A stretch of 59,680 nt of DNA from a virus: the IMG/VR virus record IMGVR_UViG_3300047548_000588, positions 1 to 59,680 of that record. One strand, 5' to 3'. The notes beneath the pieces were generated by a model. The model searched no databases, was not told where the DNA came from, and saw only the letters and a program-made list of their open reading frames with translations. Positions 4,382 through 56,847 of the stretch are shown piece by piece; the first letter of the stretch is position 1, and every line of letters starts with the position of its first letter. The position numbers were made by a program, and so were the translations under genes.

Positions 4382-4596
4382 TTTGTTTCCAGTAGTTTTT
4401 TAAGATTAAAGATAGCTTCTGGTCCAAGCAAAAATTCGCATTTACGCTGCTCTGATTTTGGGTTCTTTGCACCAGTCCAAACACTATAGAAGCTTAGTTG
4501 CTTAGTGTTTTCAGGATTGGCACAATCAACCAATTCAGCATAAAGTTGATAAGTTTCACCGCTTGTGTCTTTTACTTCATGTAATAGTTGTTTCAT
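4378..4596 (-). CDS. Conserved hypothetical protein, 72 aa
   Basis: Small soluble protein of unknown function with no recognised motif. It shares the last base of its start region with the GroES-like gene stop (4596) and overlaps the next gene by 4 bases, so its expression must be coupled to the co-chaperonin gene. The tight packing is the main support that it is real. Confidence 0.65.
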   Translation of the reverse strand: MKQLLHEVKDTSGETYQLYAELVDCANPENTKQLSFYSVWTGAKNPKSEQRKCEFLLGPEAIFNLKKLLETK

Positions 4597-4958
4597 TATA
4601 GTACCTTATCACTCATAGTTTGATCGTTGACGGGTTCGTCACTTACTAGTAGTATATCATTATTATCTACTTTGCGTATGACTTTTTCGCCCTCATTATC
4701 TTCTATTTTAACACCTCGCGTCCAACGACCGTGAGCGATTAGGACATATTGCCCAACTTTTACATCTTTCTGCTCACTACCCACAGCGTAAACTTTTGCC
4801 CAACGTGGACGAATTCCAGAGTTTTTCATATCATCATTTGGAATGATGATGCCACCTTGACTGATACGCTCTTCAAACTTCATGTCGCATACGATTACTG
4901 CATCATTTAATGGGATTATTTTGTTGACTTTGTGTGCTGCAAATGCTAGTTTACTCAT
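4596..4958 (-). CDS. 31: GroES-like co-chaperonin (gp31 analogue)
   Basis: 120 aa with the Cpn10 beta-barrel layout: IIPLNDAVIVCD at the N-terminus (the GroES 'rPL.DRV' strand), EERISQGGIIIP as the mobile-loop region around residues 30-42, then VYAVGSEQKDVKVGQYVLI (the 'G.VvavG....vkvGd.Vl' strand) and a C-terminal NDILLVSD. T4 gp31 replaces host GroES to fold the major capsid protein with GroEL. That role is inferred here from similarity and context. The ATG overlaps the upstream gene by 4 bases. Confidence 0.85.
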   Translation of the reverse strand: MSKLAFAAHKVNKIIPLNDAVIVCDMKFEERISQGGIIIPNDDMKNSGIRPRWAKVYAVGSEQKDVKVGQYVLIAHGRWTRGVKIEDNEGEKVIRKVDNNDILLVSDEPVNDQTMSDKVL

Positions 4959-5344: not shown

Positions 5345-5851
5345 CTATTTCAAAAATTCTTCTATATCTAAGTCATAGAATAAACTATTTACCCTATGAA
5401 CACCTATCAAAAATAATACAAAACTTGCTACTGAGCTACCTCTGCCCACTCCCCATACGATGTTATTTGCTCGCATAGTATCTACTAAGTATTTCAAATA
5501 TTTTAGTAAGGGAAATAGGTCTCTTTCCTGATATAACATTAGCTCATTTGCTGCTCGTTGTAGTTCTGCTTCGCCCCTGCATTGATCTAAAATCCATTTA
5601 GCGATATCTATGTTTTTGTAATCTTCGGGCATCAACCAAATGTTTTGACAGATTTGGTCGAACTCAGATTTATTTATTTTAGGATCAATATAAGTGATTA
5701 ACTCAGGTTTATTAGATATATTTAACTCTGGGTCAAAAGTGATTTCTTTATCAACTAAGCATTTTTTGAGTGATAGCTCAGGGTTAGACATGATGGCGTC
5801 TAACAAGTCTTTTTCAGAGAAAATAGGGTTACCACAGCTATCAATTTTCAT
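5345..5851 (-). CDS. DnaE-like fragment A: N-terminal part of a Pol III alpha palm
   Basis: 168 aa. The C-terminal 60 residues follow the DnaE (bacterial DNA polymerase III alpha) consensus: helix FPLLKYLKYLVDTM, then NNIVWGVGRGSS (residues 129-140, matching 'gi.vGPGRGSa.GS'), then FLIGVHRVNSLFYDLDIEEFL (matching 'aLgItdvDPL.y.LlFERFL'). It stops exactly where DnaE continues into the catalytic PDFDIDF motif. No PHP domain is present. The complementary second half is encoded at 49608-50177. The two may form a split polymerase-like protein, or a derived non-catalytic factor. The family match is by motif reading; function is inference. Confidence 0.75.
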   Translation of the reverse strand: MKIDSCGNPIFSEKDLLDAIMSNPELSLKKCLVDKEITFDPELNISNKPELITYIDPKINKSEFDQICQNIWLMPEDYKNIDIAKWILDQCRGEAELQRAANELMLYQERDLFPLLKYLKYLVDTMRANNIVWGVGRGSSVASFVLFLIGVHRVNSLFYDLDIEEFLK

Positions 5852-44723: not shown

Positions 44724-46139
44724 TTATTTTGCTTTTATAGAACTCAACAATGATTTCAATTTCGACCCTTGAATATCTACTGCAATACTTTTTTCTTCGG
44801 GCTGTAATACTTCACCTGTTTCTTGGTCTACAATTGTAGATGTTGATTTCAATTTAGACATAATACTATTTGGGCTAGGCTGACTCTTATTATTTTCATA
44901 GTTGTCAGGATTCTCATCAGTAATACGCATAGTTTCAATATTGTATTCTAAGTCAATTTTTTGACCTACACCAGTAGAACTACGTGATTTCATACATTGA
45001 ATCTGATACTTACCACGCTCACGCATACTGCGACTTGTAAAGATACCAAATACATTATCTGCGGTATTAATCTTACTGATACCACCTGCGATATGACTAT
45101 GATCGAATTCAATTTCTTCTACTGCACTACGATTTAACTGCGATGCAGTAACCATTAGAACACCCAATTCTTTAGCTAAGTTACGCAATTCTTCAGACAC
45201 ATATTTGTCTTTGATAAATTGATCATTGGGACTTACTTTGACGCTTACAGGCATTACAAGATCCAAATAGTCAACCATTACAAAGTCTACTTTTATTCCT
45301 GTTTGAATTTGTACTTCTTTCAAATAGGACCTGATATCATTGACATTACTTTGTGCAGGCATACCTTTAATTCTATACTTGCCTGCCTTTTTACCTACCA
45401 TTTTGACTTTGATTTCTGTGCTATCAACATCTTTACGAATCTCGCGAGTACTCATGTTAGTCAACATCGCATCTGTACGCAATGCTGTTAATTCCTCGCT
45501 CAATTCTAAGGTAATGTATACACCATTTAATCCTTGCTGTAACCAATTCAATGCGATGTTCATCATTACAAGTGATTTACCTGAACCTGATCCACCTGCA
45601 AAGATGTTTAGCTCGCCACGATTGAAACCACCATATAATAGTTTATCCATTTGTGGCCATCCTGTACTAACTTGACCTCCACTATTGAAATATTTGTTGA
45701 TACGGTCTTTAGGATTACCAAAATAATCAGTGCCCATATCTTTTTGTAGGCTGATTTGTACTGCGTCTTTGATTAGTTTTTCTACAGGACCATATTCACC
45801 TTTTTCTAATAAGTCAGCACTTTTTAGAATAGCACGCTCTAATTCTTGTCGCTTAGTAAATTGTTCAAACGCATCTAAGAACCATTCTTTATGCCCATCG
45901 TTCATTTCATCAATGGGCTCTAACTCTATTCCTGTAATAGCTTTGATTTGATTTATATCAGGAAGTATTCTATATTTGTCGCTGTGATCTTTGAACAAGT
46001 TAGCAACAGGCCTTAAACTTTTATCAAAGTTTTCAGCATTCATAATATTCATGACGCGAGTATATAACTCTGCGTCACAAATCATCATTCGCAAAAATAG
46101 TTTTTGAACATCAGTATTATAATTATAATCCTTTAGCAA
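44724..46139 (-). CDS. 41: Replicative DNA helicase gp41
   Basis: 471 aa, DnaB/RecA-fold hexameric 5'-3' helicase of the T4 replisome. N-terminal helical domain to about residue 135; Walker A AGGSGSGKS at 181-189; Walker B VDFVMVDYLDLVM near 285; then LGVLMVTASQLNR and the H-x-G-G-ISKINTADNVFGI segment with sensor and arginine-finger residues. The C-terminal 70 residues are a polar extension. Its start overlaps the primase gene by 17 bases, consistent with the helicase-primase complex. Confidence 0.95.
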   Translation of the reverse strand: MLKDYNYNTDVQKLFLRMMICDAELYTRVMNIMNAENFDKSLRPVANLFKDHSDKYRILPDINQIKAITGIELEPIDEMNDGHKEWFLDAFEQFTKRQELERAILKSADLLEKGEYGPVEKLIKDAVQISLQKDMGTDYFGNPKDRINKYFNSGGQVSTGWPQMDKLLYGGFNRGELNIFAGGSGSGKSLVMMNIALNWLQQGLNGVYITLELSEELTALRTDAMLTNMSTREIRKDVDSTEIKVKMVGKKAGKYRIKGMPAQSNVNDIRSYLKEVQIQTGIKVDFVMVDYLDLVMPVSVKVSPNDQFIKDKYVSEELRNLAKELGVLMVTASQLNRSAVEEIEFDHSHIAGGISKINTADNVFGIFTSRSMRERGKYQIQCMKSRSSTGVGQKIDLEYNIETMRITDENPDNYENNKSQPSPNSIMSKLKSTSTIVDQETGEVLQPEEKSIAVDIQGSKLKSLLSSIKAK

Positions 46140-47094
46140 TCTGCCTTCTCCTCATTTCAATTTTGATTTTGCTATTTGTCGCTGCGTTTGTTATGCTCAA
46201 TAATGTTGCTAATTTACCATACTTTACTACTGCGTCATTTATATCTTTAACACTACTATGCCACTCAGGCAAACTTACTTGATACCCTAATTCAATAGCT
46301 CTATCACACATTTCTAAGCCAGTAGCATCTTGATCTGGGACTACTATTATTCGTCTATTTAAGGTACTCAATAATGCTGCTTGATCGTCGCTGATAGTAT
46401 TGTGCATTGTAGCACATGCCCTAATGCTTAGTGCGTCAAATATACCCTCTGCTACTATACATATTTGCCAATGTGGATTTTGAAAGTCGATACCAAAAAC
46501 ATATCCAGGTTGTTGTTCATTGATGTATTTAGGTATGCGATTATCTGTAAATCTGCTTGTGTGACCTACCAACTTGTCTTTGTAAAAATATGGAATGATT
46601 ATCCTTTGAGCATAACGTCCCTGAGCGTGGGGAGTTACATAAAACGGATAGTCATTAATATCTATCTTTCTGCGGTGCAGATAATCTACATATAGTTTGT
46701 GTTTTGGGTTATTAGGATTTATAGCTTCGCATTCATGTAATTTATGCTCTTCAAATTTTATCTTGACTTTCTTTTTAGATTGTGTGAAATATAATAAATC
46801 TTTATTTTGTAAGCTTTCTAAATTCCATCTTTGTATTTCACTTTCGTCTATCCCACACCAACTAAGTAGTTTTCTTGTCTTTTGGGTAATTGGCTTACCT
46901 AAAATAAAATTACATTTATATTGGCAGTTGAAACAATGATAACTCCAGTTGTTAGTTCCATCAAACTTTATTCCGCCCCTTGACCTCCGATCAGCCTTAT
47001 GACCAAAGTGTTGGCAACATATAGCATTAAAGCTATGCCAACCACTTGAGGTTAATTTCTTTTTACCCGGAATGATAGATAGAATGTCGAACAT
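46123..47094 (-). CDS. 61: DNA primase gp61
   Basis: 323 aa (T4: 342). N-terminal zinc-binding domain with C26/C27-x-H and HCFNCQYKC (residues 53-61). TOPRIM domain with VAEGIFDALSI (E216-G217) and VVPDQDATG (D254-x-D256) as metal ligands. It synthesises RNA primers on the lagging strand together with gp41, whose gene follows with an overlap. All family landmarks are present. Confidence 0.95.
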   Translation of the reverse strand: MFDILSIIPGKKKLTSSGWHSFNAICCQHFGHKADRRSRGGIKFDGTNNWSYHCFNCQYKCNFILGKPITQKTRKLLSWCGIDESEIQRWNLESLQNKDLLYFTQSKKKVKIKFEEHKLHECEAINPNNPKHKLYVDYLHRRKIDINDYPFYVTPHAQGRYAQRIIIPYFYKDKLVGHTSRFTDNRIPKYINEQQPGYVFGIDFQNPHWQICIVAEGIFDALSIRACATMHNTISDDQAALLSTLNRRIIVVPDQDATGLEMCDRAIELGYQVSLPEWHSSVKDINDAVVKYGKLATLLSITNAATNSKIKIEMRRRQIAKGL

Positions 47095-47132: not shown

Positions 47133-47906
47133 TTATCTGGCTAAAATGTTAGTGACTGCGCCCGTATTGCTTACAAATTGCATTCTAATGTATGGATGAA
47201 ATCCACGAATAGTGTATCCTTGTGTCTCACTAACATCATTATAAGAATGTGCTGAAATAGGATACCAATCACCATCTACTATTGTGCTACCCTCGATGAT
47301 TACATTTCCCACGTAGTCAATGTATTGTGCTTGAATAGTGATTATTGGATTATCTTCGGTTGAGATTACACTACTGAAATAAGTTTGTGCATTACTATTA
47401 GCATTAGAAATATTACTCAAATTGGGGAAAGGTTGTCCTGTAGGTATAGATACGGGTTGTGAGGGTACAAAGCTGGGTAATATGCTGTCTACGATATTCA
47501 TATCACCTCTTGCACCAGCATTTTGGTCAACAAACACAGGGAAGTCAAATTCATTTACAGGTATTTCTAAAGTATAGTATGCCTTTTGGGGAGTAATGTT
47601 TTCTATGTCTGCTGCATTCAAAATAAGTGAGCATATACCGGTTGCAGGTAATTGTAGAGTTAATGCTTTTTGTATCAGTAACTCATTACCTTCATAATTC
47701 AATATTCTACAAGTTATAACTTTTCCTGTTATATCCACAGGCTTCTGCTGTTGATCCAAAAATTGAAATTGTATCTGGTTGTCAACGCCACGATGAAGTG
47801 TTAGGGGTTTTGCGTATTGGGGCATATATGCTCTCGGTGAAAAGCCAGATAAAAGGACAACAATTTGTCGTTGTGTATATACAAAAACTTGTGTGCTGTA
47901 AGCCAT
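47133..47906 (-). CDS. Virion structural protein, 257 aa
   Basis: Beta-rich protein with few charged residues. [20 protein letters not shown] and [20 protein letters not shown] form an Ig-like domain of the type that starts many T4-like marine phage structural proteins. [20 protein letters not shown] continues it, and the end ([20 protein letters not shown], then [18 protein letters not shown]) is a second beta domain. GATAAATA lies 26 bases upstream, with AAGGA before the start. Probably a baseplate, fibre or decoration component. Confidence 0.7.
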
Positions 47907-47931
47907 TTGGTCCTTTTTCTGTTATTATCAG

Positions 47932-47939
47932 TATTTATC
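47932..47939 (-). promoter_or_regulatory. Late promoter box GATAAATA
   Basis: Minus-strand GATAAATA 26 bases before the ATG at 47906. It lies back to back with the plus-strand box at 47947. Confidence 0.65.
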
Positions 47940-47946
47940 GTCAGGT

Positions 47947-47954
47947 AATAAATA
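47947..47954 (+). promoter_or_regulatory. Late promoter box AATAAATA of GIY-YIG gene (copy 3)
   Basis: Plus-strand AATAAATA 5 bases before the conserved hairpin, the same arrangement as the other two GIY-YIG genes. Confidence 0.65.
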
Positions 47955-47959
47955 AAAAG

Positions 47960-47989
47960 GTAGTTCGCGGAATTGGCCTTCCCAACTAC
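47960..47989 (+). promoter_or_regulatory. Conserved 5'-UTR hairpin of GIY-YIG gene (copy 3)
   Basis: GTAGTT/AACTAC outer stem, CGC bulge opposite C, GGAA/TTCC inner stem, 6-nt loop, followed by TCTAATGCTATAAGGAGC. Compared with copy 2 the inner stem changes G-C to A-T on both sides. Confidence 0.87.
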
Positions 47990-48013
47990 TCTAATGCTAT
48001 AAGGAGCACCAGC

Positions 48014-48688
48014 TTGTATATTTATTATGTTTACGCATATTTGCGGCAATTTAATTCAAACACGGGTAAGGCAGGAACTCCCTATTATATTGGAAAGGGG
48101 AAACATAAAAGGGCTTGGTCAAAGAACCACTCTGTAAATCTTCCAAAACTAAGTTCAAATATAGTAATTTTAGAAAGTGGTCTAAGTGAATGTGGAGCTA
48201 TAGCATTAGAACGACGCCTTATTAAATGGTGGGGGAGGGTAGATATTTCTACGGGAATTTTACGAAATAGAACTGACGGAGGCGAAGGTACTGAAGGTAG
48301 AAAAAATAAGTTCAATCAATCGGGAAGCCTTAATCCATCTTTCGATGATACTATCTATACATTTTACCATAAAACAGGATTGATTGAAAAATGTACACAA
48401 TTTGAATTACGGAAAAAATATAATCTTAGGGCAGGAAATCTTAGTGCCGTAATTAAAGGATATGAAAAATCAGTAAAGGGTTGGCGTATTACGGAAGAAT
48501 TTATTGACTTAACAGGTAAAAGGCAGCGTGGATGTGATGATGTTTATACTTTTATTCATACTTCAGGTATAATAGTCGAAATGACCCAAAGACAATTATT
48601 TTTAAATTTTAATTTAAAAACAAGGTCAGGTATAAGCCTCTTATGCCATAATAAAATAAAATCATACAAAGGATGGAGATTGGGGTAG
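48014..48688 (+). CDS. GIY-YIG homing endonuclease with IENR/NUMOD1-like repeats, 224 aa
   Basis: The start is TTG at 48014, 7 bases after AAGGAG and aligned with the leaders of the two related genes; the frame is open far upstream, but that part spans the promoter and hairpin. Catalytic domain: YVYAYL (residues 5-10), [14 protein letters not shown] (22-35), [15 protein letters not shown]. After a short linker come two similar DNA-binding repeats, [20 protein letters not shown]...VKGWRI and [20 protein letters not shown]...YKGWRL, of the nuclease-associated modular type. It lacks the CxxC...HFDNC end of the other two. Confidence 0.88.
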
Positions 48689-48741: not shown

Positions 48742-49122
48742 ATGTCTAATTCTGATTTCTTTCAAAAGCTTAGTCAAAATCATCCGTTTATTACGGTTTG
48801 CCATTATGCCAGTCAGGATTATGTAGGTATAGTTCAAAATCGTGATGATATAGTCACCACAATTTATGATTATGGTGCTATAGTTGATCCTATAGTAAAA
48901 GAAAAATTCTTAGAATTAGGCGAAATATGGTGGTGGGAAAGTAATAGGCTTATACCAATAAACTTGTTTTTGAAAGAAGAGTGGATTATATTCAAGCCAT
49001 TCTTAAGAACTTTTAATAACAAAAGCTTAGTAATACTACATGGGCCTGCTACTTCAATGAATGAACTAAGCAAACGTAAAAGCAAGCGCCGTAGTATTAC
49101 TCTTGTAAAACGTTTACCTTAG
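48742..49122 (+). CDS. Conserved hypothetical protein, 126 aa
   Basis: Small alpha/beta protein with PFITVCHYASQDYVGIVQNR, then DIVTTIYDYGAIVDP, then LGEIWWWESNRLIPINLFLK. The C-terminus is basic (SKRKSKRRSITLVKRLP). I recall similar proteins in T4-like marine phages, function unknown. It lies downstream of the GIY-YIG gene on the + strand and overlaps the deformylase gene end by 9 bases in convergent orientation. An AAATAAATA stretch just upstream may serve as late promoter. Confidence 0.65.
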   Translation: MSNSDFFQKLSQNHPFITVCHYASQDYVGIVQNRDDIVTTIYDYGAIVDPIVKEKFLELGEIWWWESNRLIPINLFLKEEWIIFKPFLRTFNNKSLVILHGPATSMNELSKRKSKRRSITLVKRLP

Positions 49123-49608
49123 ATTTTTCTTTCTACGCTTTTGCGCCATCTGTAAACTAAGTTTGCCTACTTTTTCAACAAAGCAATGCCCATTCAAGTG
49201 GTCCAATTCGTGCTGAAATACCCTTGCCATCAAATCTTCAAACTCTTCTTCTTTAGTTTCGCCATTAATAGTTTGATAGCGAGCTATGATTTTCTTGTAT
49301 CGCTTGACATGTAGCCATAATCCTGGAAAGCTTAGACATCCTTCAATATCTTGTACTTCTCCCTCACCTGAAACTAATTCAGGGTTGACACAAACAATAA
49401 GCTTTTCTTCGTTACCCATAATAAGTATGCGCTTGCTGATACCTACTTGTGGAGCAGCTAAACCTATACCACCTTTTAGAAACATTGTTTTAGTCATAGC
49501 TTTGACTAATTCTTCTAAGTTAGGTTCTACAATCCAGTTATCAAAATCATATGGCTCTGCTGCCTGCTTTAATACTGGATCATTCTCATCTACTAATTGT
49601 AATTCCAT
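49114..49608 (-). CDS. def: Peptide deformylase
   Basis: 164 aa. Removes the formyl group from nascent proteins. All three motifs are present: GIGLAAPQ (residues 47-54), EGCLS (89-93) and QHELDHLNG (132-140), giving Cys91, His133 and His137 as metal ligands and Glu134 as catalyst. It lacks the long C-terminal helix of bacterial enzymes, as do cyanophage deformylases. In phages it is thought to favour processing of short-lived host or phage proteins. It follows the DnaE-like fragment B with a 1-base overlap. Confidence 0.95.
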   Translation of the reverse strand: MELQLVDENDPVLKQAAEPYDFDNWIVEPNLEELVKAMTKTMFLKGGIGLAAPQVGISKRILIMGNEEKLIVCVNPELVSGEGEVQDIEGCLSFPGLWLHVKRYKKIIARYQTINGETKEEEFEDLMARVFQHELDHLNGHCFVEKVGKLSLQMAQKRRKKNLR

Positions 49609-50177
49609 TATTTTCCCTCTAATATATTCATATGTACTACTACAAGATGACTATAGGCAACAGCATGTGCCTTTTTAAATGAATAACCATTCTCATCTTT
49701 GTCCCAAACTGTTTTACTAACTACATTCCAAGGTTCACCAATAAGATGCTTTTTTGATGGTCTGATTATAGCCAAGAACATCGCTAAACGGGGTATACTA
49801 TTCACAGGCTCAGGCATCTTTCGCAAACTATCATAATGATTGCTAAGATGAATAAGTTTCTCTACAAAATGCCTATCTTTTAGTTTGTCCCAATTAGGCT
49901 CATCCATCAATTGAATTAAATGTAGTTCATCCCTAACTTGCTCATATACATGAACATTCAACAAGTCTAATTTGAAATATCCACGCTTATCCATTTCCCT
50001 ATAATCTACAGCACACATATCAGTAATAGGATTATAGGGCACTGGCTGTACATAAACTCCAGTAGCATGTTTTCTGATAGGGTTAGCTTGTAACATAGCA
50101 GCGGGAGTATGCTCAATTATCTCCAATAACTTATTTCTATCAGGAAGATCAATGTCAATATCTGACTGAAATTTCAT
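49608..50177 (-). CDS. DnaE-like fragment B: catalytic part of a Pol III alpha palm
   Basis: 189 aa, reading as a condensed DnaE continuation of fragment A. SDIDIDLPDR (residues 5-14) matches PDFDIDF, with D8 and D10 as the catalytic pair. RKHATGVYVQP (35-45) matches 'HAaGVVIap'. YFKLDLLNV (67-75, D71) matches 'lKfDfLGL' with the third catalytic Asp. SIPRLAMFLAIIRPSKKHL (127-145) matches the 'lvAlfRPGPl' region. SFKKAHAVAYSHL (166-178) matches 'FNKSHAaAYa'. Fingers, PHP, OB and tau-binding regions are missing or shortened. It overlaps the DEDD exonuclease gene by 4 bases. Confidence 0.8.
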   Translation of the reverse strand: MKFQSDIDIDLPDRNKLLEIIEHTPAAMLQANPIRKHATGVYVQPVPYNPITDMCAVDYREMDKRGYFKLDLLNVHVYEQVRDELHLIQLMDEPNWDKLKDRHFVEKLIHLSNHYDSLRKMPEPVNSIPRLAMFLAIIRPSKKHLIGEPWNVVSKTVWDKDENGYSFKKAHAVAYSHLVVVHMNILEGK

Positions 50178-50722
50178 AACAATCCATGTTTGATAAGCTT
50201 ACGATAGGCATCTTGAACCACAATAGCCTGATGTTCAGCATCTTCTACAGCCTTGTGTGTAGTTCTAGTGCCATATTTTTTATCTTTCAAACTTACTCCA
50301 GTGATATCAAATAATGTACGTGTGTCTCTAGCGTTATAATACGGCCAAGGAATAGCTAAGTCAACATTACGGAAACCAGTTTCTAAAGCCACGATGTCGA
50401 AGCCAGCACCATTGCTCCAAATAGCTCTACGATTCCAGCAAAACTTGTAAAGTAATTCCAAGCATTCTTTGAATGGCAGTCTACCAACTTCGCTAAATGC
50501 TTCGTTCATAGCATCAGGACTTTGTGTAGCCCACCATTTTATAGTCTCATCGTCAATAGTGCGATTGTATAATTCTGTTTGTTCTTCTATTGTGGGTTTT
50601 AGCTCTAACTTTTCAACTATACCCATGCCTTTAGGATCAAATCGTACAGCACCAATTGAGAGTATTACACAGTTTGGTTTTGTATCTAATGTCTCTAAGT
50701 CTACCATTATATCATTTGCCAT
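50174..50722 (-). CDS. dexA: DEDDh 3'-5' exonuclease (DexA-like)
   Basis: 182 aa. Motif Exo I D8-x-E10 in MVDLET, Exo II D109 in GAGFDIVALE, Exo III H156-x4-D161 in HKAVEDAEHQ. The segment NAFSEV...W(N) and WPYYNARDTRTL fits the T4 DexA/RNase T-like branch. In T4, DexA degrades DNA 3'-5'. Here it is translationally coupled to the DnaE-like fragment B, a layout that recalls the alpha-epsilon (polymerase-proofreader) pairing of bacterial Pol III. A proofreading link is inference. Confidence 0.87.
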   Translation of the reverse strand: MANDIMVDLETLDTKPNCVILSIGAVRFDPKGMGIVEKLELKPTIEEQTELYNRTIDDETIKWWATQSPDAMNEAFSEVGRLPFKECLELLYKFCWNRRAIWSNGAGFDIVALETGFRNVDLAIPWPYYNARDTRTLFDITGVSLKDKKYGTRTTHKAVEDAEHQAIVVQDAYRKLIKHGLL

Positions 50723-50723
50723 A

Positions 50724-51071
50724 TCATTCCCATCTCAATTTAAATAATACTAATTCTTGGTCACTTGCCAAGTAAATTCTGTTTTTAGCATCCCTATCAT
50801 GTTTCCAACACCAATGTTTATTTTGACTTTTAGGCGTGGTATTAGCCGTATTGAGGACTATATTTTGTATATTAAAATTCTTATCGGTAATCCACTCATC
50901 AACTTCTTTACTCGCACCCCAAGTTTGCCAACACCATTCACGCCATTCAAAAAACAAATTGTCTGGTGCACGATTTTTGAATAAATTATAAGGTGCGTTA
51001 ACAGAAATTAGATACTTGAAGTCGGGATATCCAGTGTATCTACGATCAACTTTCTTTATATCTAAACTCAT
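50724..51071 (-). CDS. Tandem small-protein array member 1, 115 aa
   Basis: First-listed of nine short genes at 50.7-53.3 kb. Shared traits: a W/F-C/I helix start (WREWCWQTWG), a central aromatic strand and the end YLASDQELVLFKLRWE, matching the array's 'x-D-x-x-L-L-F-x-L-R-W' pattern. The ATG at 51071 overlaps the previous stop by 4 bases (ATGA). The adjacent exonuclease gene follows after one base. A compact RRM-like alpha/beta fold is plausible from the strand-helix pattern. Function unknown. Confidence 0.65.
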   Translation of the reverse strand: MSLDIKKVDRRYTGYPDFKYLISVNAPYNLFKNRAPDNLFFEWREWCWQTWGASKEVDEWITDKNFNIQNIVLNTANTTPKSQNKHWCWKHDRDAKNRIYLASDQELVLFKLRWE

Positions 51072-51409
51072 TGTTTCAATTTTTGCCACACTATTGCCTT
51101 TTCTAATCTGTCTTTGAATTCTTCTGCTTGCTGTATATTATTAAATCCTACACCTGATATCTTGAATGTGCGCTCTACCCAATTACTATAGTTCCTACTT
51201 TTATCCTGTAGCCAAATACTATCATTTACCCATGTGATCCAATGTTTTTTAAGATCCAAATCTGTTTCAACTAATCCTATAACATAACATTTCATTTCAC
51301 CAAATACGGTATCTAATATCCTCATAGTGGGATCTATATCCCGTAGAGTTTTACCATGACTCCAAACTACAAGATAATTACCATCGAAAGGTTCTATAAT
51401 TATGTTCAT
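51068..51409 (-). CDS. Tandem small-protein array member 2, 113 aa
   Basis: The most divergent member; it lacks the RW ending (it ends AIVWQKLKQ) but has the aromatic character (HWITWVNDSIWLQ; NYSNWVERTFKIS) and a C-terminal helix with EEFKDRLE. ATGA overlaps at both ends fix it in the same operon. It may be a paralogue at the limit of recognition or an unrelated insert. Function unknown. Confidence 0.6.
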   Translation of the reverse strand: MNIIIEPFDGNYLVVWSHGKTLRDIDPTMRILDTVFGEMKCYVIGLVETDLDLKKHWITWVNDSIWLQDKSRNYSNWVERTFKISGVGFNNIQQAEEFKDRLEKAIVWQKLKQ

Positions 51410-51711
51410 TGAAATTTAAGAACATAAAGTATGTACTTTTGTTCATCTACTATTTGGTAGTCCCCACCGATATTACCTTCTACAAAGTTTAATTTGATGC
51501 CATATTTGTCAGTGATCCATTCTTCAAATTCATACGCATCAAAATTCGTATGCTCATTTTGAAATTCATCACGAAGTTTTTTTAATGTTGCCCAAAAATC
51601 ATTTCTACGCTTTCTATCTGAATGAAGAGCCTCAATGGCTTCTTGGTCGCCCTGCATAACAGCATTAACCAAACTTTGTACCCTTTTTAAATAATCTTCG
51701 TCATCTTCCAT
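51406..51711 (-). CDS. Tandem small-protein array member 3, 101 aa
   Basis: The N-terminal half is a charged helical region not seen in the others (DDEDYLKRVQSLVNAVMQGD). The C-terminal half has EFEEWITDKYGIKLNFVE and the ending IVDEQKYILYVLKFQ, a degenerate form of the array's C-terminal motif. Overlaps the upstream gene by 25 bases. Function unknown. Confidence 0.6.
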   Translation of the reverse strand: MEDDEDYLKRVQSLVNAVMQGDQEAIEALHSDRKRRNDFWATLKKLRDEFQNEHTNFDAYEFEEWITDKYGIKLNFVEGNIGGDYQIVDEQKYILYVLKFQ

Positions 51712-51911
51712 TCGTGGTCACGGCCCCATGTTAGCATGAATAGAGTATAATCTTTTTCTTCGGAAAATTCAATAAGTAATTTATCATCCTGCACTTTTCC
51801 GGTAAAATTCACCTTATGTTTATCTGCCCAAATATACAATCTAATCTCTATTGTGCTTTTAACAAGATCCCTCAGTGCTTTATCTTCGGAGGGTAAATAA
51901 AATTCAATCAT
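51687..51911 (-). CDS. Tandem small-protein array member 4, 74 aa
   Basis: Helix LRDLVKSTIEIRLYIWADKH, strands NFTGKVQDDKLLIEF and the motif EEKDYTLFMLTWG, then a short extra tail. Started at ATG 51911, which overlaps the upstream stop (ATGA); a GTG two codons earlier is less likely. It looks like a minimal version of the shared domain. Function unknown. Confidence 0.6.
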   Translation of the reverse strand: MIEFYLPSEDKALRDLVKSTIEIRLYIWADKHKVNFTGKVQDDKLLIEFSEEKDYTLFMLTWGRDHEWKMTKII

Positions 51912-52141
51912 TCCCACCTCAATTTGGCTAATAATGCCATATCTTTATTCCATATTCTTATGATGTATAGTGTAGGTTCAGCAAAGATACTATTATTGTA
52001 ATCTGTTCCTAAAGGTAATAATTCCCAGCCATCACCGTAGGCTGACCAAAAATGGTTATTTATTTTGAACTTACCCACATTATTTTCAAGCCAAGAAATT
52101 ATTTCCTGCCTACCACCCCTAGCCTTTACTTCATATGGCAT
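51908..52141 (-). CDS. Tandem small-protein array member 5, 77 aa
   Basis: RQEIISWLENNVGKFKINNH is the W-x-x-x-x-G helix, FWSAYGDGWELL the aromatic centre, and YIIRIWNKDMALLAKLRWE the motif ending. It starts 1 base after the next member's stop. Typical of the array. Function unknown. Confidence 0.65.
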   Translation of the reverse strand: MPYEVKARGGRQEIISWLENNVGKFKINNHFWSAYGDGWELLPLGTDYNNSIFAEPTLYIIRIWNKDMALLAKLRWE

Positions 52142-52142
52142 A

Positions 52143-52397
52143 TTACCACCTTAAGGCACACAATAAATAATCTCGTTCGTATCTGAATTTTATACAGAAT
52201 GAGTTGTCGTCAAATGCCCACCTACAATGACGTTCGCAATTTGGAATGCTATCATAGATCCAATCTAAAATATCACCGTACCAATTTACAAATTTACTAT
52301 GTGTGTTTATTTCAGGTAGAGGTATAGTATGTTGATACCATCCAGGTTTGACATCACACCAATCTTTTTGTGTTTCGTACCACTCTAACTTTTTCAT
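52143..52397 (-). CDS. Tandem small-protein array member 6, 84 aa
   Basis: WYGDILDWIYDSIPNCERHC is the helix region, then WAFDDNSFCIKFRYERDYLL and the CALRW ending. ATG 52397 overlaps the upstream stop (ATGA). Rich in Trp and Cys for its size. Function unknown. Confidence 0.65.
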   Translation of the reverse strand: MKKLEWYETQKDWCDVKPGWYQHTIPLPEINTHSKFVNWYGDILDWIYDSIPNCERHCRWAFDDNSFCIKFRYERDYLLCALRW

Positions 52398-52666
52398 AAC
52401 CAACGCATAGTGAACAATAAAGCATCCTGTTCGTTTTTAAAATACATCATTGTATAATTAAAATCTTTTTCTAATATCCATAAAATATCGTTATCTGTAC
52501 AACTTTCTTCAACAGAACATATATCGCCGGGACCGTAATAAGTATAAGATACTATGTTACCCTTACCTAAATAAGTTTCACAAAAAGAAATAATATCTTC
52601 CAGTTGATTATAAAAATTTTTATATAAACTGATTTTCTCCCAACCTTGAGGTATATCTATTATCAT
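52394..52666 (-). CDS. Tandem small-protein array member 7, 90 aa
   Basis: LEDIISFCETYLGKGNIVSY is the F-C-x-x-x-x-G-x-G helix and turn, closely like member 8 (VIQWCRDNFGEGGRN). The ending FKNEQDALLFTMRWL is nearly the same as member 8 (FEKDALFFCMRWL), so these two are the clearest paralogues. ATG 52666 by ATGA overlap. Function unknown. Confidence 0.68.
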   Translation of the reverse strand: MIIDIPQGWEKISLYKNFYNQLEDIISFCETYLGKGNIVSYTYYGPGDICSVEESCTDNDILWILEKDFNYTMMYFKNEQDALLFTMRWL

Positions 52667-52887
52667 AACCAACGCATACAAAAGAAAAGGGCGTCTTTTT
52701 CAAATTTAAAATAGAATGTATCAGAGTATCTATGGACCCAACCATATCTCCAAATACATTTTTTATTTCTACCACCTTCACCAAAGTTGTCTCTACACCA
52801 CTGAATGACTTCGTGTAAATCATCGTGAGTATATGGTTTTATTGATAGCTGAACTCTAAATTCATGCTTGCTCTTACGTTTAATCAT
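52663..52887 (-). CDS. Tandem small-protein array member 8, 74 aa
   Basis: A minimal, clear member: N-terminal strand EFRVQLSIKPY, helix HDDLHEVIQWCRDNFGEGGR, strand CIWRYGWVHRYS, then TFYFKFEKDALFFCMRWL. The beta-alpha-beta-beta layout suggests a ferredoxin-like fold. ATG 52887 by ATGA overlap. Function unknown. Confidence 0.68.
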   Translation of the reverse strand: MIKRKSKHEFRVQLSIKPYTHDDLHEVIQWCRDNFGEGGRNKKCIWRYGWVHRYSDTFYFKFEKDALFFCMRWL

Positions 52888-53324
52888 GACCACCTCGTCA
52901 CGAACCAAATATAATCAGCATCATCCATGAAAGCAAAGAAAATAAAATCATACCCGCCGATATCATTCATAGAATAATCAGTGGGATTATCAGCATTATT
53001 AGGATCAGTAAAGAAGTTGTTAGGTAACACCCTATGAATATCAGTGCGCCATTTACCTACACAATTACTTTTACACCATTCTTTTAGTTTCTCATAGCCA
53101 TCAGTCCAATCGGGGTATCCTATAAAGGCTTCACTGGTGGCATCTTTTATAACGTAGACATAAGGATAATTCATGTAGAAAGATTTAGTTGTTCCTGCCC
53201 AGTTATTTATGTCGGGGTCAAACCTGTGATTATACTCTGCCCAATTTTTACAACCGTGCCTTTTCAAAAATCTTTTATCTTTCCACCTTAAATAGTTACT
53301 ATATAACCTACCAATCAAGTACAT
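52884..53324 (-). CDS. Tandem small-protein array member 9, 146 aa
   Basis: Largest member, with an N-terminal 45-residue extension containing LRWKDKRFLKRHGCKNWAEY, a basic aromatic segment. The shared domain follows: YEKLKEWCKSNCVGKWRTDI, then YDFIFFAFMDDADYIWFVTR and WS. It starts 1 base after the stop of the zinc-finger gene. It heads the array in transcription order. Function unknown. Confidence 0.66.
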   Translation of the reverse strand: MYLIGRLYSNYLRWKDKRFLKRHGCKNWAEYNHRFDPDINNWAGTTKSFYMNYPYVYVIKDATSEAFIGYPDWTDGYEKLKEWCKSNCVGKWRTDIHRVLPNNFFTDPNNADNPTDYSMNDIGGYDFIFFAFMDDADYIWFVTRWS

Positions 53325-53325
53325 T

Positions 53326-54036
53326 TCAGTACCCAGCCAACCTTAATATTTCTGTGACCTGCGCCACATGCTCGGGATTTTTCTTGAATTTGATAGCCCA
53401 CAATTCAGGATTGATATAATCCATAATCAATCTTTCTTGATCTGGTGTAATCTTGTTCAAAAAATCCACACCACTATTACTATGGTACATAATCCAGGGG
53501 CTGATTTTTCCTGTGGTGATTAGATAGCAAATCTTATTACTATTGCCATACCTCAATACGTCATTGTTTTTTATGTGTAGGTCTTCTGCCAAACTAATGG
53601 TAGTTTCAATACTGCGAGCAATAGCATCAAGTGGATCTTCTACGCGCAAATATTCGCACAGAAATTTTGTGTATATTACATCACTACACCAATCATCAAT
53701 CTTGATTTTGTTTTTGATAAGCCAATCAATGAACCTACTGGGGTTCAAACAATTTATATCGATACAATATATGCCAAATTTTATAAAGGCAATATAGTAA
53801 GGCGACTTGATGAATTCTTCGTAGGGTTTTACTTTTTTAGACGCTGTGTTTTTCTTCATGAACTGAAGAAATAGTTGATATGCTATACGATTACCTGGCT
53901 TATCTTTTTCTTGCCAGCGATGTTTGTATTCACATATATGACGGATAACCGTAGTTTCGCGGACAAATGTTCGCCCACAAAACTCACATCCAAATTTAGA
54001 TGTTTCCTTGGTCTCGTTCGTATTGCTTGATTTCAT
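53326..54036 (-). CDS. C2H2 zinc-finger protein, 236 aa
   Basis: One C2H2 finger at residues 17-39 (C17, C20, H33, H39) near the N-terminus. A helical body with FLQFMKKNTASKKVKPYEEF and a C-terminal segment (DYINPELWAIKFKKNPEHVA) follow. Probably binds DNA or RNA; I recall a similar protein beside gp62 in T4-like marine phages. The frame overlaps gp62 by 41 bases, and no other start codon lies before the finger. Function unknown. Confidence 0.7.
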   Translation of the reverse strand: MKSSNTNETKETSKFGCEFCGRTFVRETTVIRHICEYKHRWQEKDKPGNRIAYQLFLQFMKKNTASKKVKPYEEFIKSPYYIAFIKFGIYCIDINCLNPSRFIDWLIKNKIKIDDWCSDVIYTKFLCEYLRVEDPLDAIARSIETTISLAEDLHIKNNDVLRYGNSNKICYLITTGKISPWIMYHSNSGVDFLNKITPDQERLIMDYINPELWAIKFKKNPEHVAQVTEILRLAGY

Positions 54037-55389: not shown

Positions 55390-56847
55390 TCATTTATATT
55401 TTAGTTTTTCAAGCTCAAAAGGATAATTGGCTTCGTTATAGAAAGTTTTTCTTTGGGTAAGATGTCGTTTAGCAAACTTACAATTGCTTGTTATGTCCCA
55501 AATTTGAACAAAGTCCTTGTCCTCAGCTTTGCGAATACCCCTACCAATCGACTGAATAACCCTGACAAAGCTTTTACCCGGTTCAACAAGTACAAGATTA
55601 AAAATTCTAGGTATATTAATACCAACAGCGGCCACGCCATAGGTTGCAACCAATATTTTGTTGGTGCTTGTTGCGATTTCATCATATTCTTCCTTTCTTT
55701 CAGTTAGTTTTGTTTCACCCGATACAAATACTGAGCCAGGAAGCCTACTTACAATTTCGTTTCCTGCTGCTACTCGGTCAACCAATATCAGAGTATTACC
55801 CGTTTCCTTTATTTTGTCAATAAGATCACTGATTGTATCCAATCGCTTCTTATCTTCTAACAAATGTTTTAATTCAGATTGATAGTTGCTAAACTCTACA
55901 CCATCTTGTAACTGAATGATGTTTACATGACAACGTGCCAATACACCTTGATCTTGTAATTCGCTGGCGGTAAGCTTGTTGATAACATTACCCAAACTTA
56001 CAAACAATGCCTGCGCCTCAAACTTAGCTTTAGGAATAGTTCCAGTCAAGCCCCAACGAATAGGTATGTGGCTCATCACACCTGTTAATAATGTTTTGAG
56101 TGCATCCGCTTTAGCCTGATGCACTTCGTCCACAATCACACATACAACATCTTCTAAAAACTCGCCAATAGGTATTTCAGCCTCATGTGCTTTAGTTTTC
56201 TTCAGCATGTTGTTCAAGCTTTGCCATGTACATATGGTATGCTTTTTACCAATTTCTTTGCGATCACCAAAGTATACGCCAACATCTAATCCCAAATTCT
56301 TATAGTCAACCTCAGTCTGAACTACTAGCGATTTGTTAGGAACGATTACGATACTACGACCATAACTTTCTACACTATATGATAGCGCGGCAGTCATAAT
56401 AGTTTTACCTGCGCCTGTAGCTACCTCTTGCAAAGCTTGAGGATTAGCCAAAAAGTTATTGATGATATCTATTTGATAGTCACGCAAGATTATAGGCTTG
56501 CCTTCTTGGGGATGACCTTTGGGCCACATCTTATGCTGAAACGTAGCCTCTGACACTTTGTTGAAATTGAAGGTTGTTGTATAGTTGCGTAAGTCCTCTA
56601 ACTCAATGTCATAACCAGCCCTATCTAAGATAGGTAAGATTTCTGGTAGTAAATTGATATAAGTAGATCCAGCTAAACTAAAATAGCTTACTTTGCCATT
56701 CCACCTGCCCAATCTAACACTGGGTAAGTATCTAGCACCAGGCACCTCATACTCAAACATCTTTAAGAGGGTGCGCCGCTCAGATAGCTCTAAGTTTTCT
56801 ATCTTACAATTTACTTCATCTTTTACTATGATCTTACAAGTTTTCAT
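55390..56847 (-). CDS. uvsW: SF2 DNA helicase UvsW
   Basis: 485 aa (T4: 503). The N-terminal DNA-binding domain is followed by RDYQIDIINNF (Q-motif area), Walker A ATGAGKT (residues 143-149), DEVH box at 240-243, LTGT near 269, then the second RecA domain with GETKLTERKEEYDEI, ATYGVAAVGINIPRI and QSIGRGIRK (motif VI). In T4 it unwinds R-loops and branched DNA, controlling the switch from origin to recombination-dependent replication. Overlaps the upstream gene by 4 bases. Confidence 0.94.
   Translation of the reverse strand: MKTCKIIVKDEVNCKIENLELSERRTLLKMFEYEVPGARYLPSVRLGRWNGKVSYFSLAGSTYINLLPEILPILDRAGYDIELEDLRNYTTTFNFNKVSEATFQHKMWPKGHPQEGKPIILRDYQIDIINNFLANPQALQEVATGAGKTIMTAALSYSVESYGRSIVIVPNKSLVVQTEVDYKNLGLDVGVYFGDRKEIGKKHTICTWQSLNNMLKKTKAHEAEIPIGEFLEDVVCVIVDEVHQAKADALKTLLTGVMSHIPIRWGLTGTIPKAKFEAQALFVSLGNVINKLTASELQDQGVLARCHVNIIQLQDGVEFSNYQSELKHLLEDKKRLDTISDLIDKIKETGNTLILVDRVAAGNEIVSRLPGSVFVSGETKLTERKEEYDEIATSTNKILVATYGVAAVGINIPRIFNLVLVEPGKSFVRVIQSIGRGIRKAEDKDFVQIWDITSNCKFAKRHLTQRKTFYNEANYPFELEKLKYK

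Follow-up and report, generated by a model that had tools for sequence, protein, structure and literature searches.

How a bacterial-type replicative polymerase comes to be present in a T4-like phage, and in what form it could work there, is the question raised by two small genes of the window, i.e. the whole stretch of 59,680 nucleotides of viral DNA analyzed here (IMG/VR record IMGVR_UViG_3300047548_000588, positions 1 to 59,680). The α subunit of DNA polymerase III (Pol III alpha, DnaE) is normally a single polypeptide that is at least some 1,000 residues long. A first-pass annotation, based on the sequence alone, regarded the 189-residue ORF at 49608-50177 as the catalytic half of a miniaturized DnaE and pointed to the 168-residue ORF at 5345-5851 as its partner. 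Both ORFs are present as claimed, on the minus strand and 44 kb apart, and they are termed here the C-half and the N-half, with the following features.

49608..50177, minus strand: C-half of a split minimal Pol III alpha (ATG start, 189 residues; phrog_11778, hhalign, AF2 and VIA-align)
50148..50162, minus strand: DIDID block, C-half residues 6-10, with D6, D8 and D10 aligned to E. coli D401, D403 and D405 (hhalign)
49965..49967, minus strand: D71 of the C-half, the third catalytic Asp, aligned to E. coli D555 (hhalign)
49758..49766, minus strand: IRP (C-half residues 138-140), corresponding to the RPGP finger motif of DnaE (conservation and PF17657)
49653..49679, minus strand: FKKAHAVAY, C-half residues 167-175, counterpart of DnaE FNKSHSAAY (hhalign and conservation)
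5345..5851, minus strand: N-half of the split minimal Pol III alpha (168 residues; PF07733, phrog_11127, hhalign and VIA-align)
5432..5446, minus strand: GRGSS, N-half residues 136-140, the triphosphate-side palm motif (conservation count)

The N-half starts with about 60 unmatched residues, continues with a pre-palm and palm region that contains GVGRGSS, and ends at the seam where the C-half starts; the C-half then shows, in order, the DxDxD strand, HATGV, KLD with the third catalytic Asp, shortened fingers with IIRP, and a final KKAHAVAY helix.

The C-half matched phrog_11778, annotated as 'DNA polymerase' in PHROGs (E 4.8e-55), and the protein of the window itself gave no direct sequence match in Pfam, NCBIfam or PDB, so that its link to DnaE has to be drawn via profiles and fold. 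The absence of such a direct match would favor a chance occurrence of the motifs in an unrelated protein. Nevertheless, when a C-half profile was compared with a profile of 10 DnaE sequences (from E. coli, a Thermus plasmid, an E. coli plasmid, six phages and, as DnaE2, B. glumae, with five of the 10 proteins being partial and ending where the fetched stretch ends), the score was 54.4, whereas 40 column-shuffled controls, which cover the C-half, reached a maximum of 26.8. All of the motifs claimed for the C-half (DIDID, HATGV, KLD, IIRP and KKAHAVAYS) are present, and they are above chance. The hhalign comparison recovered three collinear segments, i.e. residues 6-22 with E. coli 401-419, 33-83 with 507-567 and 152-185 with 739-774, with probabilities of 13, 90 and 42, respectively, the middle one alone being strong and the outer two weak singly; the third of them supports the proposed equivalence of KKAHAVAYS to the DnaE segment.

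In agreement with the profiles, the AlphaFold2 model of the C-half (45 sequences, pLDDT 90.6) aligned over residues 1-189 with residues 398-778 of E. coli DnaE (2hnh) by VIA-align (Z 8.9, rmsd 3.8, 180 aligned). The best twelve rows were DNA polymerases without exception, eleven being Pol III alpha and one (9qrn, Z 7.0) titled merely 'DNA polymerase', and the next row had a Z of 3.0; the seven top Foldseek matches, with a best E of 0.01, were all Pol III alpha as well. Replicative DNA polymerases are therefore the only good matches of the C-half in structure. An independent sequence link to DnaE is provided by the bacterial finger model PF17657, which was above its cut-off in the C-halves of phages CM1 and XacN1, two distant members of the family, over their IRP, and which matched weakly the C-half of contig G004. 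Given the profile score, the gap in fold Z from 8.9 to 3.0 and the finger matches, a chance resemblance is in our view already refuted, and its probability is practically nil. The proposal that IIRP corresponds to RPGP holds as far as PF17657 covers the IRP of CM1 and XacN1, but the stretch was not recovered by hhalign with the window's own profile.

The alignment also defined the register of the active site. The metal-binding Asp residues of E. coli DnaE, which we take to be D401, D403 and D555, correspond to D6, D8 and D71 of the C-half; the assignment of D71 as the KxD Asp was therefore right, whereas the metal pair had been placed at D8 and D10, and D10 turned out to be the third Asp of DxDxD.

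The N-half is related to DnaE by direct matches. The Pol III alpha NTPase domain PF07733 was above cut-off (6.2e-08), phrog_11127, also 'DNA polymerase' in PHROGs, matched with an E of 1.5e-41, several NCBIfam DnaE models matched weakly, and hhalign aligned residues 97-167 with E. coli DnaE 322-392 (E 1.4e-08). An N-half profile searched against PDB had Pol III alpha as its best match (E 0.017), among VHL proteins at about 0.1. The N-half model (20 sequences) had a pLDDT of 77.5, falling below 50 in the GRGSS loop and in the C-terminal tail, and it gave no significant match in Foldseek; in VIA-align all four rows with a Z of at least 2, 5lew among them, were Pol III alpha (Z 7.1 to 4.3, about residues 60-155), the best one with 82 residues aligned. 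The low-confidence loop and tail of the model would fit a protein part that folds only against the C-half. The 168-residue ORF is therefore the other half, the one that bears GRGSS, and the term 'catalytic half' suits the C-half in that it contains the metal-binding Asp residues but not as a description of a complete active site, since GRGSS sits in the other protein. For the same reason, the C-half by itself should not be catalytic.

The seam between both proteins falls in the loop that connects the 'FERFL' helix of DnaE (N-half residue 167, E. coli 392) to the DxD strand, and the C-half starts five residues ahead of D6, so that no conserved palm motif is lost by the split. The residues that are lost lie elsewhere. 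The stretch from D10 to H37 of the C-half has 26 intervening residues and its E. coli equivalent, from 405 to 511, about 105, which indicates that the thumb is gone, and the end of the C-half corresponds to about E. coli residue 778, so that it lacks the remainder of the fingers and every later domain. None of 15 records (10 reference phages and 5 contigs, including that of this phage) contained the PHP domain (PF02811), which was found in 14 of 14 controls; the models were matched as follows: the helix-hairpin-helix model HHH_6 (PF14579) in none of the same 15 and in 11 of 14 controls, and the finger model PF17657 in three of the 15, each time inside the C-half, and in 10 of 14 controls. The 10 reference genomes thus have no PHP or HHH_6, with finger matches confined to C-halves, and the 86-kb contig G001, a fragment, matched none of the three models. 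What the pair is missing is thus the thumb, PHP, helix-hairpin-helix and everything beyond about E. coli residue 778, and its fingers are shortened.

An ordinary polymerase would be crippled if its thumb and part of its fingers were lost, which makes another nucleotidyl-transfer substrate possible. The Pol beta fold includes many non-polymerase enzymes, and an active two-piece nucleotidyltransferase derived from the C family could carry out tailing, end processing, nucleotide signaling or protein modification rather than templated synthesis. Invariant active-site residues combined with the loss of elements that handle the template (thumb, helix-hairpin-helix and some of the fingers) would be expected of such an enzyme, and C-family palms share the Pol beta fold according to Iyer et al. 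(2021, PMC7824862). However, the retained finger elements IRP and KKAHAVAY are conserved as strongly as the Asp residues, and most of the relatives seen have these genes within the replication block; we therefore consider a non-templated activity unlikely, although worth keeping in mind.

The conservation of the active site was counted after removing duplicates, which reduced the C-halves from 92 to 79 and the N-halves from 114 to 95. D6, D8, D10, D71, H37, G40 and K69 were present in 79 of 79 distinct C-halves in the profile alignment, the most distant of which has about 30% identity to that of the window, and R139, P140, K142, H171 and Y175 in the 75 of 75 that extend that far (four truncated C-halves have no letters at R139-Y175). 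On the other side, G136, R137, G138 and S139 were found in 95 of 95 distinct N-halves and S140 in 94 of 95, in a set that includes four reference phages (RaK2, Hallingskeid, Atu_ph07 and SCTP-2) and leaves distant ones, e.g. Slicko01 and CM1, outside. The earlier statement that the catalytic Asp residues are kept is therefore correct in the new register, and the invariance of D6, D8, D10 and D71 together with that of GRGS argues that both parts of what appears to be one active site are under strict constraint. These counts bear on the possibility that the pair is a structural or regulatory remnant that has lost catalysis and binds gp43, the clamp or the primase. The small size of both proteins and the presence of a family B polymerase (PolB) in all 10 reference genomes that encode the split enzyme would suit a remnant. 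Nevertheless, such residues are usually lost in catalytic remnants, and no catalytic Asp was lost in 79 distinct C-halves and no GRGS in 95 N-halves, so a dead remnant is improbable.

The two halves mostly occur together, and no fused form was seen in the material analyzed. Of 50,697 phage records searched by tblastn, 63 matched the C-half and 71 the N-half (62 and 69 of them listed, respectively), and the 69 listed N-half records comprised 62 of the split type and seven that look like ordinary DnaE, as judged from annotation or from their match. Both halves were present in 61 records, among the 62 C-half and 62 split-type N-half records listed; PP728206, a 109-kb record, had only the C-half among the matches listed, and OP752703 had the N-half, with no C-half row among the matches listed. 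All 10 reference phages (RaK2, PA5oct, Phosso, Atu_ph07, SCTP-2, Vibrio 2.275, XacN1, Slicko01, CM1 and Hallingskeid) carry both, separated by at least about 11 kb. A frame fusing N- and C-half was not found at any of 92 C-half loci (79 of 80 from IMG/VR, L080 being too short, 10 reference phages and three contigs of metagenome-assembled genomes [MAGs]) and 114 N-half loci, with flanks of a few kb. In ten long IMG/VR contigs, all treated as fragments, the N-half was seen in nine, the C-half in seven, both in six and PolB in eight. A first scan of IMG/VR confirmed 82 C-half stretches, 80 of which were kept, and a profile scan confirmed at least 597 N-half stretches, which indicates that the split enzyme is widespread; a profile-derived scan of bacterial genome contigs gave the three MAG contigs. 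One of these, PBPT01000016.1 (335 kb), carries a C-half and is placed in a Neomarinimicrobiota MAG, and it is probably a mis-binned jumbo phage. Weak tblastn matches (E 1-2, 93% of the C-half) in cyanophages S-H35 and S-RIM4 suggested a wider spread, but these phages were rejected as relatives because profile scores were below 2 bits and neither half's family was matched in either genome.

The presence of a C-family palm in a T4-like phage had been considered unexpected. It is surprising beside T4 but not in this lineage, where a family B polymerase accompanies it. The contig IMGVR_UViG_3300043399_000446 (86,132 bases) belongs to the same phage, with 99.99-100% over stretches of 11.1 and 11.9 kb, and beyond the window it encodes an intact 900-residue family B polymerase with FDIE, DINSLYP and YGDTDS, so that the gp43 counterpart that had been asked about exists and the split enzyme is not the sole polymerase of this phage. 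PolB was found in 12 of 12 reference records, the 10 with the split enzyme and two cyanophages without it, and was not seen in two of the long contigs (168 and 135 kb, both fragments), each of which carries the N-half and the C-half. Two unrelated polymerase families are thus encoded within one phage genome. A megablast search of positions 37000-59680 against phage records revealed no near relative. In PA5oct, Atu_ph07 and Slicko01 the PolB matches fall in two separate open frames, and PolB looks split there too. A split PolB with an intein is described for phage MIJ3 in the text available of PMC6892783; it resembles the present case in that a polymerase is split in the same phage lineage, and differs in that it belongs to family B and is intein-related.

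The catalytic-Asp half of a miniaturized DnaE in a T4-like phage is thus borne out by profile, fold and comparative evidence, and we consider it probable that the two genes encode the parts of a minimal two-subunit nucleotidyltransferase of the C family, which would need both subunits joined in order to be active and would be accessory to a gp43-type replisome. The N-half would provide the GRGSS, triphosphate-side part of the palm, and the C-half the metal-binding Asp residues (D6, D8 and D71) together with the shortened fingers; the halves would assemble and rebuild one palm, and the joined pair would polymerize DNA. Having no thumb, PHP, or helix-hairpin-helix and clamp-binding parts, the pair would presumably be distributive, and its role may be primer extension or the filling of lagging-strand or repair gaps rather than that of the main replicase.

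Polymerases of this kind are already known: Iyer et al. (2021, Viruses 13:63, PMC7824862) reported a phage-specific minimal Pol III alpha split in two in group 2.2 jumbo phages, with the two genes far apart and PolB alongside; in the text available, its role was left unknown, perhaps one strand or repair, and the split form was proposed as a model of the ancestral bacterial enzyme. The pair of the window shares with it the two small proteins, the distant genes, the NTP-side N-half, the Mg- and template-side C-half and the presence of PolB; other Pol III domains were not seen in the 86-kb fragment of its genome, and no basic difference was found. The window is a new, uncultured member of this apparently uncharacterized kind, in which exonuclease and deformylase genes overlap the two ends of the C-half gene. 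What is added here is the absence of a fused form at the loci analyzed, the 61/62 pairing, the strict constraint on the active site and a co-distributed CCHC zinc-finger protein. Compared with bacterial DnaE and PolC, GRGSS, DxDxD, KxD, the RP motif and KSHAxAY are collinear and the C-half fold is alike, whereas PHP, thumb and helix-hairpin-helix are missing, the fingers are short and nothing follows about E. coli residue 778; E. coli DnaE is one chain of 1,160 residues, and the window has 168 plus 189 residues in two. To our knowledge, these 357 residues in two chains, with all catalytic residues kept, make up the smallest C-family enzyme. The 172-residue CBB_328 ('truncated') and Atu_ph07 gp316 have been noted as DNA polymerase III alpha subunit (PMC6102473, PMC5259590), and the accessible text of both genome papers mentions one alpha-subunit gene and no second half. 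Both proteins are most likely N-halves, and the CBB annotation under our N-half match reads 'DNA polymerase III alpha'. A report of an activity test of the split enzyme was not found in the literature searched, which included accessible text of PMC11242549 and barely covered preprints and subscription journals.

The genes around the C-half place it in the primase-helicase block, as indicated by the following features.

44724..46139, minus strand: DnaB-like replicative helicase (phrog_19; Pfam/PHROGs), near the C-half in 44 of 80 loci
46123..47094, minus strand: Toprim primase (phrog_47; Pfam/PHROGs), near the C-half in 47 of 80 loci
48742..49122, plus strand: phrog_11637 protein of unknown function (E 7.6e-29), convergent, conserved downstream of the C-half
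49114..49608, minus strand: peptide deformylase (PF01327, phrog_2890), starting on the last base of the C-half (1-nt overlap)
50174..50722, minus strand: DEDD-type 3'-5' exonuclease (Rv2179c-like / phrog_255; PF16473, 4.6e-36), with a 4-nt overlap with the C-half start
53326..54036, minus strand: phrog_11058 protein (E 4e-61), with an N-terminal CCHC zinc-finger-like motif
55390..56847, minus strand: UvsW-like helicase (phrog_16), with which the replication block ends upstream

The genes typically follow one another as UvsW, unknown genes, phrog_11058, the C-half, the convergent phrog_11637, a virion protein, primase and helicase, with insertions in some phages. XacN1 is off-pattern, its C-half not being beside primase and helicase (4 kb seen), and CM1 is unannotated. 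Neighbor counts refer to the 80 IMG/VR C-half loci, many of which are short; phrog_11637 was present in 74 of them and overlapped the 3' end of the C-half in 62.

The phrog_11058 gene was found at 65 of the 80 loci, directly upstream of the C-half in 36, and it lies about 3 kb upstream in the window. Its C17, C20, H33 and C35 are kept in 49 of 50 distinct sequences. Beyond these loci, it was present in nine of the 10 reference phages with the split polymerase. Of the 61 records that contain both halves, 58 have it, and each of the 60 phrog_11058 records listed (of 61) carries at least one of the halves. From its distribution, its position directly upstream and its conserved CCHC motif, phrog_11058 is a possible third component, i.e. 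a subunit that would supply the missing thumb or DNA-binding parts. However, it was not found in Slicko01, nor among the matches listed for Slickus01 and LC768485 (an 85-kb record), and its co-distribution may reflect mere inheritance within a single phage lineage; a three-part enzyme is therefore doubtful. In its most specific form, with the N- and C-halves as palm and mini-fingers, phrog_11058 as a thumb or DNA-binding substitute and the whole acting at the primase-helicase of a family B replisome, we regard it as slightly more doubtful still. If this three-component reading were true, polymerases of two unrelated families would be at work at a single replication fork. In XacN1 and CM1 the N-half, phrog_11058 and the C-half lie within about 16 kb, phrog_11058 being closer to the N-half.

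The overlapping exonuclease was considered as a fixed proofreading partner of the split polymerase and rejected as not general. By blastp, only 13 of 80 loci had a homologue of the window's exonuclease within 50 nt on the upstream side of the C-half; nine had one elsewhere, and none was recognized in 58, four of which have a short upstream stretch. RaK2 and XacN1 have DnaQ-type exonucleases a few kb from the C-half.

Near the N-half, a GroES-like gene adjoins it in 24 of 29 loci; in the window this putative co-chaperonin is at 4596-4958 (minus strand), with NCBIfam GroES models matching far below their cut-offs (best 1.8e-06). In RaK2 the N-half is about 1 kb from the clamp-loader gene gp44. 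At the C-half of the window, phrog_11058 is set apart by the DEDD exonuclease gene and by small genes that together span about 3 kb. At 50724-53324 (minus strand) there are about eight small ORFs of 76-146 residues, several of which have, by eye, similar C-termini of the 'LRWE/TRWS/LRWL' type, and they resemble a tandem array of paralogues that has been inserted downstream of phrog_11058, ahead of the C-half block. A 296-residue ORF at 47798-48688 (plus strand) contains, also by eye, a stretch like that of GIY-YIG endonucleases.
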